Position numbers and translations under genes: made by a program. A stretch of 64,000 nucleotides of DNA from NCBI GenBank assembly GCA_014654705.1, contig JACVZY010000110.1, positions 1 to 64,000 on the forward strand, in the 5' to 3' direction. The first letter of the stretch is position 1. Each line of letters begins with the position of its first letter. The DNA is from Ignavibacteria bacterium. GTDB taxonomy: Bacteria; Bacteroidota; Ignavibacteria; Kapaibacteriales; UBA4661. A model generated the notes under the pieces. That model was not told the origin of the DNA and ran no database searches. It was given only the letters and a program-made list of their open reading frames with translations. Positions 29,790 through 34,508 of this stretch are shown in pieces.

Positions 29790-30998
29790 TTACCCGTCAC
29801 TGCTTGGCAGCACTTTCGCAGAAGTCCGCCGCAGAAGTTCCTCCGCCAAACCCCGCTCCATCTGCTCCGAACCATTCAGACGAGATTTCTTTTCCAGAAC
29901 CGATAGTGCTTCGGTTGCTTTTTCTTTTGCAGCCTTGATGTCATCTTGAGCAAGCGCAAGCGCTGCTTCTGCGCGAAGGCGAGTTGGAGGCTCAATAAAG
30001 GCGCTCTTCCCTGCTTGACCGAGCCATTTATGAGCTTCTTCAGCATTGTGCCTATGCACGCCTTCCATATAGGCAACTTCAATCGCCACCAACGGGCGAA
30101 ACGCTTCGGGATATGATTCGAGATTCGTAGCGGCATAGTCCAAACAGCGCTGCGCCTCTTCCACATTGCCACTGTCCAACGCCCATTGATAGGCGAGGAC
30201 GTGAGCGCTGAGGTCATCCACGGTTTTATCAGGCAGCGCAAGTGCGCTTTTGAGGTAATCCATATTCAGGTCTCGCGGATGAGTGTCATTCATCATTGCC
30301 CCGGCAAGAATCGCCAAAGCGCACCAGCGCTCACCTTCCTTGTCGCGCTTGCGCAGCATCAGCACTCGTGCGCCGTCGCTGTAAAAATGATTGGCATGGT
30401 ACGGAATAGCAGTACCGACAAAGATGAGGAACGACGCTGCACAGGTTGCGCCCAAAAATAACGCAAGTAAGCCGTGCGGCGCGGCAAAAGAAAAAAACTT
30501 TGCCGTAAGGAACGGTAAGCCCGCACAAAATGCCAGCACAAGCGATGCGACGGGACCACCCGCAACCAAACGCATCATCGCGCCTTGGATATCGCGTTCA
30601 TTGCCAGTCGGAACGGCAGAGGCAACTCCGCCCACCAACGACATATTTTTGTTCAGCCCCACCACGATTCGGTCTCCATCGCGCAATATCTGAAGCGGTC
30701 CCACGACCAACATCGCAAAGCGAAAACCTGATAGCTGCCCGCCCAAAATGTGTCCCCATTCGTGAATACCCAAGACGACATTCATCGCCACGATAGTCAG
30801 AAGCATTGCCAGAACCCCGTCCACCAGCGGCGAGCCGGAACTTGGTCGGGGCGACTGCGACGAGGATTTGAGAAAAAGAGCAATCACACCATAACCAAAG
30901 GCTGCACCCACAATGCCGACCACCGCTACTCCGATGACAGCCCGAAGGGGTGTTTTTCGAGGTGCGGGCGTGGTGGAGGATGGTTGTTGCTGAGTCAT
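29790..30998 (-). CDS. M50-like membrane metallopeptidase with helical-repeat C-terminus
   Basis: The ATG at 30998 (MTQQQPSS) gives 402 residues. A disordered Pro/Thr N-terminus leads to helix 1 (about 19-43). The zinc motif HEWGH (79-83) lies in the second helix, after LTIVAMNVVLGI. More helices follow, then NHFYSDGARVL, which stands where site-2 proteases have N-x-x-P-x(4)-DG but without the proline. The C-terminal 170 residues are Ala-rich paired helices resembling TPR-like repeats. It should cleave substrates in or near the membrane. It is divergent from an ECF sigma/anti-sigma-like pair, which makes a regulated proteolysis role plausible; a general housekeeping role cannot be excluded. 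Confidence 0.82.
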   Translation of the reverse strand: MTQQQPSSTTPAPRKTPLRAVIGVAVVGIVGAAFGYGVIALFLKSSSQSPRPSSGSPLVDGVLAMLLTIVAMNVVLGIHEWGHILGGQLSGFRFAMLVVGPLQILRDGDRIVVGLNKNMSLVGGVASAVPTGNERDIQGAMMRLVAGGPVASLVLAFCAGLPFLTAKFFSFAAPHGLLALFLGATCAASFLIFVGTAIPYHANHFYSDGARVLMLRKRDKEGERWCALAILAGAMMNDTHPRDLNMDYLKSALALPDKTVDDLSAHVLAYQWALDSGNVEEAQRCLDYAATNLESYPEAFRPLVAIEVAYMEGVHRHNAEEAHKWLGQAGKSAFIEPPTRLRAEAALALAQDDIKAAKEKATEALSVLEKKSRLNGSEQMERGLAEELLRRTSAKVLPSSDG

Positions 30999-31410
30999 CT
31001 GTACTTCAGAAATGGTGGTGAAAAATTGATGAATAGTTGCAAAACATTGAACATCAGAACAAAGTCGGCAAGACAAATCGTGGTGACGATTGCTTGCCAT
31101 CATGTGCGCGAAAAAACTACTCGGTTCGTCGTACTTTCTTTTTCTAACCCTGGGGATTATCACCTTACCCCACTCCCATAAACGGACAACACGTTTCAGC
31201 ATTGTGTGGGAGATAAAAATCGAAAGAAAAAAAATCTTCTCCCTCTGCATCCTCACCAAAACTTGCGCCGTACACCTTGTAAAAAATATTTCCGCCAACA
31301 ATGAAACGATTTTGAAACCGTCGGGTTACTCCTTCTAGAAACACAATGATAGAAACGACGGTATTAAATTGCAAGTATTGACTTCATCGTTCAAACGAAC
31401 CAATCGCACT
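30999..31410. other. Divergent intergenic region between M50 protease and ECF sigma genes
   Basis: A 412-base divergent control region. It contains several GAAAC motifs (for example near 31305, 31316 and 31353) of the kind used as -35 elements by ECF sigma factors, but no pair with correct spacing to a matching -10 was settled. A minus-strand frame at 31165-31374 lacks an ATG and known features and is not called. Confidence 0.35.
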
Positions 31411-31977
31411 ATGAGTTACTCCTCGTACTCCGATGCAGACTTATTTTACCGCATTCAAGGCGCGCAAACTCCCGACGCAGAACGTGCTTTCAACGAATTG
31501 TACGCACGGTACTCGCCCCGCATCTATGCGTATTGCTTGCGTGTGCTGGGCGACAGAGATCAAGCGCGGGATGTGTTCCAAGACGCATTTGTACGGTTTT
31601 ACAACAGCGCACAACAAGAACGCTCCATGACGAATGTGGCAGGATTTCTGCTCACCATTGCACGAAATCTCTGCCTCAATCACAAACGCGACACACGTCC
31701 CACAACACCGGTTGAGAGTTTGGAATTGCCTGCACCGCAGCACGGCGTGTCGTATGAAGAAGATGAGTTGCTGCGGCTTATCACGCTTGCGCTTGACCTA
31801 CTCGATGCCGAATATCGCGAGGCATTTGTCCTTCGAGAATACGACGGACTGTCGTTTTCGGAAATCGGCGAACTTACCGACACCAACGAAGCAACCGCTA
31901 AAACACGCGCCTTCCGAGCCAAACAAAAAATACGGCAGATTCTTTCGCCCTATCTGCAAGACTTGGAACGGTCATAA
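31411..31977 (+). CDS. ECF-type RNA polymerase sigma factor
   Basis: The ATG at 31411 (MSYSSYSDAD) gives 188 residues. Region 2 is LYARYSPRIYAYCLRVLGD with the -10-reading helix ARDVFQDAFVRFY. Region 4 is FVLREYDGLSFSEIGELTD followed by NEATAKTRAFRAKQKIR, the -35-reading HTH. The variable linker contains a proline-rich stretch. It should direct a small envelope or stress regulon. The next gene, 65 bases downstream, has an anti-sigma-like N-terminus and a membrane helix and is the probable partner. Confidence 0.93.
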   Translation: MSYSSYSDADLFYRIQGAQTPDAERAFNELYARYSPRIYAYCLRVLGDRDQARDVFQDAFVRFYNSAQQERSMTNVAGFLLTIARNLCLNHKRDTRPTTPVESLELPAPQHGVSYEEDELLRLITLALDLLDAEYREAFVLREYDGLSFSEIGELTDTNEATAKTRAFRAKQKIRQILSPYLQDLERS

Positions 31978-32042
31978 ATGAATACTGACAACTTAAGAAC
32001 CCAACATTCAGCATTCAAAACTCACCATTTCACACTATCGCC

Positions 32043-33368
32043 ATGAATTACTCCGAACTTCTCCACGACTTTCTTGACGGAACGCTGGGAAGCGAACATC
32101 AAGAAGCACTCTTCATCGCGCTGGCGCAAGAGGCAGAACTTCGCTCAGAGATGCAACAGCTCCTGCGCATCAAACGCGCCGTGCAGAACGATACCGAAGC
32201 CTTTATGCCGCCGCCGGAAGCAAGAGACGCAATTTTCGCCCGACTTGGCTTCGGCACGGCGATTCCCACTCCACCTATCCCTGTGCAAGCACCCGCAGCA
32301 GTAAGCGCAATAACAGAAACTGTTACCCGTACAGCACCAACAGCAGGACGATTCTCATGGGGCGAGGTGTTATTGTCGTCCTTGGCAACCTCTCTTTTCA
32401 CAGGACTGCTCTTCTTCTTTTTCTTGCGTCCCTACGGAAGTGGTATAAGTACAGGCTTTTTCGGTGGAAATAGCGGAAACGGCTTAGTACCGCCCACGAC
32501 CAGCTATGCACAGACAAACGGCATGGAATCGCCATCGGGAAGGTATGTGGCGTCTTCCTCAACGCAAGATACTGTGAGGGTTCTCCGTGAAGTGGTGCAT
32601 CATTATCTCCCCGCTTCTCAGGATGCAAATGTGAGCGCACTTCAGCGAGAGTTTGCCAATTTTCAAGCAATGATGCTCGCTTTGACAGGCGAACTCAGAA
32701 ACGCTCTCCACGACGCACAGGCAGAAAACAAACGTCTTACGGTAGAGCGTGCTGCTGCCCGTGATTTGCAAACCTCTGCAACGGAGCGCCCATCGGAGCG
32801 TTTACCGCAAAAACAGCAGCAAAGCCAGACGGAACAGCCCGTTGCAGCTTCTCACGGCACAACACCCAAAGCGGACGAATGGTACAACAACCTCACCTTC
32901 GGCGTTCGCGGAATGCGCTCGCGCTCTGTGCCACAGGCAACGATTGGCTCGAATGCCGCTCTTGCTGTTGCACCGAACACCGCAATAAGCGCACTCTACC
33001 GTCTTACGGCGCAACACGAAATCGGCATCGAAGCCGGACAGGAAGCGTTCTTCCAGACCTTCCGCTCCCACAACAGCGAAGGAATTCCTTTTATCATTGA
33101 GCAGAACCCGACGCTTTCATGGGCGGGCTTGGCATACCGCTACACCCTTTTCCCCGAAAGTATGCTCACGCCTTTTGTTCACACTGTTCTAGGCGGTGCG
33201 GACGTGGGGCTGACGGGACGCGCCATGCTTGGTGTTCGATTTGCACCGGACTCACGAACACAGTTTTTGCTTGGCGCAGAAGCCTCTGCCATCATCTACG
33301 GGCATCAAGGCTCGTGGTACTCATCGCAAAATATTGGTTTCACCTACGGTGTTTCCATTCGCTTCTAA
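32043..33368 (+). CDS. Anti-sigma-like membrane protein with beta-barrel-like C-terminal domain
   Basis: A 441-residue protein of unusual build. Residues 1-70 (LLHDFLDGTLGSEHQEALF, then AELRSEMQQLLRIK) resemble the short, zinc-free anti-sigma domains of Bacteroidota. A Pro/Ala linker leads to one membrane helix (about 108-130, ending FFFFLRPYG). A putative coiled coil follows (about 180-250) and a Gln-rich linker. The last 165 residues have alternating hydrophobic strands (FGVRGMRS, EIGIEAGQE, WAGLAYRY, RFAPDSRTQFLLGAEA) and end in YGVSIRF, a C-terminal Phe like that of outer-membrane barrels. Directly downstream of the ECF sigma gene. Domain naming is from visual pattern only; as a single polypeptide, cytoplasmic sensor plus barrel-like end is not a standard architecture. 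Confidence 0.7.
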   Translation: MNYSELLHDFLDGTLGSEHQEALFIALAQEAELRSEMQQLLRIKRAVQNDTEAFMPPPEARDAIFARLGFGTAIPTPPIPVQAPAAVSAITETVTRTAPTAGRFSWGEVLLSSLATSLFTGLLFFFFLRPYGSGISTGFFGGNSGNGLVPPTTSYAQTNGMESPSGRYVASSSTQDTVRVLREVVHHYLPASQDANVSALQREFANFQAMMLALTGELRNALHDAQAENKRLTVERAAARDLQTSATERPSERLPQKQQQSQTEQPVAASHGTTPKADEWYNNLTFGVRGMRSRSVPQATIGSNAALAVAPNTAISALYRLTAQHEIGIEAGQEAFFQTFRSHNSEGIPFIIEQNPTLSWAGLAYRYTLFPESMLTPFVHTVLGGADVGLTGRAMLGVRFAPDSRTQFLLGAEASAIIYGHQGSWYSSQNIGFTYGVSIRF

Positions 33369-33518: not shown

Positions 33519-34508
33519 ATGAACACGAATCATCAAATCCTCGAAGCGCCGCAATCGGCAATGCTTACCACGAATGTTCGCCGCCAAGCCTTGTGGCAAA
33601 CCTCTCTTATCTTTGCTTTTGCTCTTTCAATCCTTATTGCACTCTTTGCCACTTCATGCCAATCACCCCTAGATATAGTAACACCTAAAACCAGCACCCT
33701 TGATATTACTTGGAATACGGCAATTAACCCTCAAACACAACAAGTTGAAAAGTCGGTTTCTTCATTGAACGGTGTGGAACCTCAGGTCGTATTTACACTT
33801 TCACGAGACATATTTATATCCACGAGCACTACGACTGGTACGCATACAGTCCAAAATGGGCTAGCAAGAGCACAGATTGACCGAGGACTAATCCCTGGCG
33901 ATACCACTTCCCCCCCGTCCATTGCAGCCTCTTTTAACGGATCACCTTTCTATGCTTTATCTCGTTTCAGTAGCAACAACTTTAAGAAAGTAAATTTTCT
34001 GTACCTCCCCGCACTATTATTTCCTAGTAATGTGGCAAACCAAATGCCTGTTATTTCACCTCTTAGTGATTTGACAGCCCAAGTACCCGTTCAAGTTCTT
34101 ATACCAAACTATACCCTCACTGACAATAAAGTCGATTGGTTGGGTAAAGTAGAAATGTTATCGCCCATTAGTAATGGCGACACATGGGTTAAAGACACTC
34201 AACTTCAACGTGGTCAGCCATTGACAGTGCGTTGGTCGAGCAATGTTGCAGATGCAGACGGTGCTGAAATTACTTTGACCTCAAGGGTATTCCAAGATAG
34301 TACCATAGTACCTGTACATATCGAAAAAAACGTTCCCGCTTCAAACTTGGGGGTAAATGAAGCACAATTTACAGCAGAAGAGACTAAAAAGCTTTTGGCA
34401 GGACGTGGAGAGCTTGAAGTTCGGTACTACAAAGTCAAAGCCGTTAATGATGGGAAAGTAGTATTTACTTCAGAAAGCCGATCGGGTTCGCGTATTATTA
34501 TCAAGTAG
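33519..34508 (+). CDS. Predicted lipoprotein of unknown function
   Basis: A 329-residue protein with a long N-region and a lipoprotein signal: hydrophobic core IFAFALSILIALFATSC with the lipobox cysteine at residue 47, followed by QSPLD. The mature part is rich in Thr, Ser, Asn and beta-strand-like sequence. The segment LTVRWSSNVADADGAEITLTSR suggests an immunoglobulin-like fold. The family was not recognised. The codon usage and composition look more A/T-rich than those of its neighbours, which may hint at a different origin. It follows the anti-sigma-like gene by 150 bases on the same strand and could belong to its regulon. Confidence 0.75.
   Translation: MNTNHQILEAPQSAMLTTNVRRQALWQTSLIFAFALSILIALFATSCQSPLDIVTPKTSTLDITWNTAINPQTQQVEKSVSSLNGVEPQVVFTLSRDIFISTSTTTGTHTVQNGLARAQIDRGLIPGDTTSPPSIAASFNGSPFYALSRFSSNNFKKVNFLYLPALLFPSNVANQMPVISPLSDLTAQVPVQVLIPNYTLTDNKVDWLGKVEMLSPISNGDTWVKDTQLQRGQPLTVRWSSNVADADGAEITLTSRVFQDSTIVPVHIEKNVPASNLGVNEAQFTAEETKKLLAGRGELEVRYYKVKAVNDGKVVFTSESRSGSRIIIK

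Follow-up and report, generated by a model that had tools for sequence, protein, structure and literature searches.

A predicted outer-membrane-tethered anti-sigma factor paired with an ECF sigma factor in a Kapabacteria genome

The window analyzed here, 64,000 nucleotides of contig JACVZY010000110.1 from an Ignavibacteria bacterium (assembly GCA_014654705.1), carries a gene for an extracytoplasmic function (ECF) sigma factor followed by a gene for a 441-amino-acid protein. Based on structure prediction and comparison, this protein probably forms one chain that reaches from the outer membrane to the cytoplasm and holds the sigma factor there, with a C-terminal beta-barrel as the sensor. The host genome comprises 5.7 Mb in 118 contigs, and its nearest named relatives are metagenome-assembled genomes labeled 'Candidatus Kapaibacterium' and 'Ignavibacteria bacterium'; NCBI assigns Kapaibacterium to the Bacteroidota. 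An earlier note, written from the DNA sequence alone, had proposed an envelope-stress circuit of three genes, and all three are where it placed them: an M50-like protease gene on the minus strand, and the sigma and 441-amino-acid protein genes on the plus strand. The parts of the sigma/anti-sigma pair are as follows.

31411..31977, plus strand: ECF sigma factor of the lineage we call K1, 188 amino acids from its ATG (Pfam Sigma70_r2/r4_2; sigma trees)
32043..33368, plus strand: predicted outer-membrane-tethered anti-sigma factor, 441 amino acids
32043..32243, plus strand: predicted N-terminal four-helix class I anti-sigma domain, residues 1-67 (AlphaFold2; PDB fold matches; NCBIfam match in relatives)
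32358..32423, plus strand: single membrane helix or signal anchor, residues 106-127 (hydropathy, AlphaFold2)
32424..32891, plus strand: predicted periplasmic tether of 156 residues, mostly of low predicted local distance difference test (pLDDT) score and poorly conserved (AlphaFold2, conservation, linker lengths)
32631-32780, plus strand: coiled-coil-like helix inside the tether, residues 197-246 (AlphaFold2)
32892..33365, plus strand: predicted C-terminal 8-stranded outer-membrane beta-barrel, residues 284-441 (AlphaFold2, fold comparison, beta-signal)

The first gene of the pair is identified by Pfam matches to Sigma70_r2 (E 8e-15) and r4_2 (E 5e-14). Its reading frame opens at TTG 31369, but aligned relatives indicate that ATG 31411 is the likely start. 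The 441-amino-acid gene follows after a gap of 65 bp. We modeled its product with AlphaFold2 from 16 aligned sequences and obtained a confident four-helix N-terminal end and an eight-stranded barrel of the outer membrane type.

The N-terminal domain resembles class I anti-sigma factors in fold. Its helices (residues 3-67) were modeled at a pLDDT of about 90, except for lower values of about 60-70 toward the fourth helix, and when predicted alone the domain formed helices 3-12, 17-29, 31-54, and 58-67, that is, a three-helix bundle and a separate fourth helix. A fold search returned ten PDB matches in all, and eight of these show domains of class I anti-sigma factors in complex with sigma factors (RsiW, MucA, and RslA, with Z scores of 7.4, 6.2, and 5.4). 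Among anti-sigma sequence models, the window protein matched PRK13920 at E 0.02 only, while 5 of 17 relatives matched the NCBIfam anti-sigma model NF052375 (best E 1.4e-6). The N-terminal domain matched other anti-sigma proteins of the host genome at HHalign probabilities (Prob) of 92-94, and one of those proteins matches RseA_N. A PDB sequence search gave nothing useful with the family profile, and with the N-terminal domain gave only RseA at E 1.3. The 441-amino-acid protein has no Cys, and hence no zinc motif, and contains a single hydrophobic helix at residues 106-127, based on hydropathy and AlphaFold2. The known class I anti-sigma factors RsiW, MucA, RseA, and RslA (PMC7406223) share with it the four-helix N-terminal domain and the adjoining sigma gene; the window protein differs in that a long tether and an outer-membrane barrel follow in the same chain, and in lacking a zinc motif.

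The C-terminal end, described earlier only as barrel-like, was predicted by AlphaFold2 to form an eight-stranded barrel at residues 284-440, mostly at pLDDT 88-96. This barrel superimposes on the solved eight-stranded outer-membrane barrels OprF, NspA, PagL, and OmpA with VIA Z scores of 14-16 (for OprF, PDB structure 4rlc, Z 14.6 over 116 residues at 2.3 A). Pfam and NCBIfam searches gave no match to it. The chain ends in TYGVSIRF, a beta-signal of the type recognized by the barrel assembly machinery (BAM) with a terminal Phe. Of 48 family members, 39 have such a C-terminal signal, compared with 4 of 535 control open reading frames. This set, used also for linker lengths, comprises the 48 barrel-bearing members; a 49th entry (L132) has the N-terminal domain only.

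Between the two folded ends lies the linker, where pLDDT is mostly below 50 and conservation falls to 0.26-0.37, against 0.59 and 0.61 at the two ends. All 48 full-length barrel-bearing members have a linker of at least 123 residues, which is enough to span a periplasm. The earlier note had suggested a coiled coil in this region. AlphaFold2 does predict a long helix at residues 197-246 (pLDDT about 67), but no other part of the protein is as poorly conserved, and we therefore rejected the coiled coil as a family feature.

Relatives of the protein are widespread, and they are paired with sigma genes. We found them by protein searches blind to the sigma gene, except that a few members belong to loci picked on account of the sigma gene; the set also includes some loci in duplicate. 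Relatives occurred in all 10 genomes of the family, in all 25 genomes of the same order within a 296-genome sample, and, across the order (Kapabacteria relatives), in 120 of 123 genomes, where a single genome gave as many as 14 matches. Wherever the DNA 5' of a relative was available, an ECF sigma gene lies immediately before it, at a median distance of 33 bp; in the five cases without such a gene, a contig end cuts the locus short. In the host genome, 7 of 33 sigma loci are of this pair type. The proposal of an ECF sigma factor followed by an anti-sigma-like protein with one membrane helix is thus borne out by the Pfam matches, hydropathy, the AlphaFold2 model, and the conserved pairing. The distance matrices of sigma factors and N-terminal domains correlate at r 0.92 over 49 pairs and at 0.80 within the window class (37 pairs), and shuffled matrices never exceeded 0.31 (2000 shuffles). 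Published cognate pairs of ECF sigma and class I anti-sigma factors correlate at 0.82 (PMC7406223).

Some K1 sigma genes (L178 and relatives) are preceded, about 70-120 bp 5', by the motif TGCAACA-N14-GTGT(YATT), with 0-1 mismatches in six. TGCAACA-N14-GTGTYATT is a candidate autoregulatory promoter. Within the host genome, the sole exact copy is at C79:11435, 5' of a paralogue's own sigma gene.

The domain layout has precedents in Bacteroidia, so the earlier remark that this architecture is not a standard one is out of date. In Bacteroides thetaiotaomicron, Dma1-3 (dual membrane-spanning anti-sigma) consist of an anti-sigma domain, a membrane helix, a disordered tether, and a C-terminal barrel, and these systems govern glycan loci as well as the output of outer-membrane vesicles (PMC13088901). 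Dma1 is reported to span from the outer membrane to the cytosol, and the partner sigma factors belong to the ECF21 (Das) group. A sigma/anti-sigma pair of Phocaeicola vulgatus, M0N98_03761/03760, has the same layout, its anti-sigma factor being predicted to cross the periplasm and to carry a barrel in the outer membrane; the pair is induced by the envelope-active toxin BcpT, which raises the sigma gene 33-fold, and the same source cites B. fragilis EcfO and its partner as a like pair (PMC9308784). We group the Phocaeicola pair with Das/Dma by description and host, not by sequence comparison.

Outer-membrane barrels also inform inner-membrane anti-sigma factors in TonB-dependent signaling of the FecA-FecR-FecI type, where a distinct 22-strand transporter supplies the barrel. 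The window barrel, in contrast, has eight strands and is fused to the anti-sigma factor. The field of cell-surface signaling is listed in PMC11637429.

Given this resemblance, the window protein could be an ordinary Dma, orthologous to those of Bacteroides and paired with an ECF21 (Das-type) sigma factor. The domain order (anti-sigma domain, membrane helix, long tether, and C-terminal barrel) and the position directly 3' of the sigma gene are identical to those of Dma (PMC13088901), and the K1 barrel matches Dma barrels at an HHalign Prob of 54.5. However, the K1 barrel matches 12 other barrel proteins of the host genome at Prob 0.1-61, the highest value being to an ordinary outer-membrane protein. 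The Dma match falls inside this background, and thus HHalign does not show homology to Dma beyond the generic barrel level. The class I N-terminal domain of the window protein is without a match to that of Dma (Prob 0.1), and likewise the N-terminal domains of K1, of Dma, and of K2, a second sigma/anti-sigma type in the same genomes with a different N terminus, do not match one another. The hosts differ as well, Dma being found in Bacteroidia and the window protein in Kapabacteria.

Two sigma trees, which included Bacteroidia pairs from Parabacteroides, Bacteroides, Phocaeicola, Emticicia, Bernardetia, Fibrella, and Spirosoma, place the sigma factors with barrel-tethered partners in three lineages: Das/Dma (eight Das-type sigma factors; support, 100/97), K1, which includes the window (98/92 and 100/96), and K2 (95/92 and 96/94). 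The K1 and Das clades are separate, with other sigma factors between them; the K1 core leaves out two or three divergent members of its lineage, and K2 is nested in a far-removed sigma group (100/100). Forcing K1 and Das together cost 19.7 log units, a borderline rejection by the approximately unbiased (AU) test (p 0.045), while forcing K1 and K2 together gave an AU p of 0.0001. We consider orthology with Dma unlikely. The trees lean toward a window sigma factor outside the ECF21 (Das) group, and while the window system would work like Dma, we lean against counting it as a member of the Dma/ECF21 family. A link from outer membrane to transcription in one polypeptide, so far known from Bacteroides-type Dma/ECF21 pairs, would then also exist in another order, where it is near-universal, on a sigma lineage that looks separate from Das and with a class I anti-sigma domain.

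A search for NigD genes as regulon members found none in 148 genomes from the GTDB phylum group, a further difference from Dma. In Parabacteroides distasonis (L173), a Das-like sigma gene is followed by genes for a 182-amino-acid protein with one helix and a 361-amino-acid protein with YGN repeats, with no Dma gene.

These predictions and comparisons suggest how the pair may work. The N-terminal class I domain would sequester the sigma factor in the cytoplasm, helix 106-127 would cross the inner membrane as a signal anchor, the 156-residue tether would cross the periplasm, and BAM would insert the C-terminal barrel into the outer membrane. If the outer membrane changes, or if the barrel fails to insert or is lost, this could then be relayed along the single chain and free the sigma factor. 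We would guess that the release step is proteolysis by a general site-1/RseP-type pathway, in which the neighboring M50 protease is not needed. Paralogues may answer different signals.

The fusion could alternatively serve only to couple synthesis, if the barrel is cut off to exist on its own in the outer membrane and the N-terminal domain stays behind as a conventional inner-membrane anti-sigma factor. The poorly conserved linker would tolerate such cutting. However, no linker among the 48 members is shorter than 123 residues, the protein searches for relatives turned up the barrel family solely in sigma-linked fusions, and the span reported for Dma1 runs from outer membrane to cytosol (PMC13088901). 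We consider a free barrel quite improbable. A variant of the single-chain reading is that the barrel monitors not the state of the outer membrane but a specific ligand, such as a glycan, a siderophore, or a toxin, as a surface receptor. The authors of the Dma2 work suggest an unknown glycan as the sensed signal (PMC13088901), and the many paralogues per genome differ in their barrels. On the other hand, the barrel is small, with eight OmpA/OprF-like strands, and the similarly built Phocaeicola protein responds to envelope damage (PMC9308784). The receptor variant is possible, though we do not favor it.

Several points weigh against a single sensing chain. The N-terminal domain gave weak Foldseek E-values (best, 0.27) and Z scores below 8; such modest scores are usual for small helical domains, and in these model comparisons it is the identity of the matches that is telling. 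The membrane helix shows only a weak positive-inside bias. Barrel and sigma distances also correlate, at 0.77 within the window class, so that the matrix correlation partly reflects shared descent. We found no convincing sigma-dependent promoter 5' of the window sigma gene, where the best fit to the motif, at 31302, has 3 mismatches and is at chance level. Finally, the mechanism as proposed for this lineage draws on prediction, on comparison, and on the precedent of Dma and Phocaeicola. Prediction and comparison back the domain make-up, the pairing, the linker length, the barrel fold, and the beta-signal; from these we infer where the protein sits in the membranes, that it binds the sigma factor, what it senses, and how the sigma factor is released.

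K1 and K2 differ in their N termini, but by HHalign (Prob 99.9, E 4e-32) their barrels are clearly homologous. Since these related barrels are attached to unrelated N termini, the sensor appears, from sequence comparison, to have been swapped between sigma modules. Such natural swaps separate sensor from output, making the barrel signal and sigma release directly testable. The odds slightly favor a broader view of the barrel as a portable sensor: it would have been attached to two or more unrelated modules (K1, class I, and K2), with Dma a third, and dual-membrane anti-sigma factors would have arisen more than once and become a main route from outer membrane to genes in this order.

Of the 12 other barrel proteins of the host genome, the one that matches the K1 barrel best (Prob 61) is an ordinary outer-membrane barrel, L192 (G000:C51:247539-248099), located 3.5 kb from a paralogous pair (C51:242264/242761); it is a possible source of the sensor domain. 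Sigma factors that are sisters to K2 precede long proteins at L142, L147, L150, and L151 (G000:C6:77157, C71:269605, C22:37899, and C5:8557), which encode 1099, 684, 508, and 576 amino acids, mostly with one membrane helix and with no recognized barrel. These downstream proteins may be another expanded anti-sigma-like group.

The third gene of the proposed circuit lies on the other side of the control region.

29790..30998, minus strand: M50-like membrane protease, 402 amino acids from ATG 30998, divergent neighbor (Pfam M50 E 6e-5, below the cut-off)
30999..31410, no strand: intergenic region, protease to sigma gene

The protease with HEWGH is present on the minus strand as described and also carries a second M50 motif, YSDGAR. 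Its start is less far upstream than the long open reading frame implies: homology begins near residue 94-104 of that frame, and therefore the likely start is ATG 30998, leaving a gap of 412 bp to sigma ATG 31411. The earlier note had made this protein a dedicated site-2 protease that cuts the anti-sigma factor, so that the three genes would form one system. Its divergent position fits such a role, and HEWGH and YSDGAR are intact in it and mostly so in its relatives. However, only 5 of the order's 123 genomes have protease homologues, versus 120 of 123 for the anti-sigma family, and no homologue adjoins another such pair; one of the five matches, in G006, is intergenic sequence and not a protease. 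No multi-helix HExxH protein was found near 47 other pair loci, and the host genome holds four further M50 proteins elsewhere, one of them RseP-like. The gap of 412 bp likewise speaks against a dedicated role. The sigma/anti-sigma pair is thus kept in other genomes without the protease, which we rejected as a circuit member and regard as a bystander; a three-gene system is highly unlikely.

Part of the intergenic region, 31021-31211, shares 84% identity, over 190 bp, with an intergenic site of a related genome with other neighbors (G006:C427:2094-2284, L058). This element holds a conserved hairpin (GGCAAG...CTTGCC) and in-frame stops, and could be either a small noncoding RNA or a mobile element; an Rfam search of the window gave no matches, the element included. 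Downstream of the pair, a gene considered as a possible conserved third member, 33519-34508, encodes a 329-amino-acid probable lipoprotein with an LFATSC lipobox, which has only very weak similarity (E 0.005) to genes 3' of two or three other pairs.

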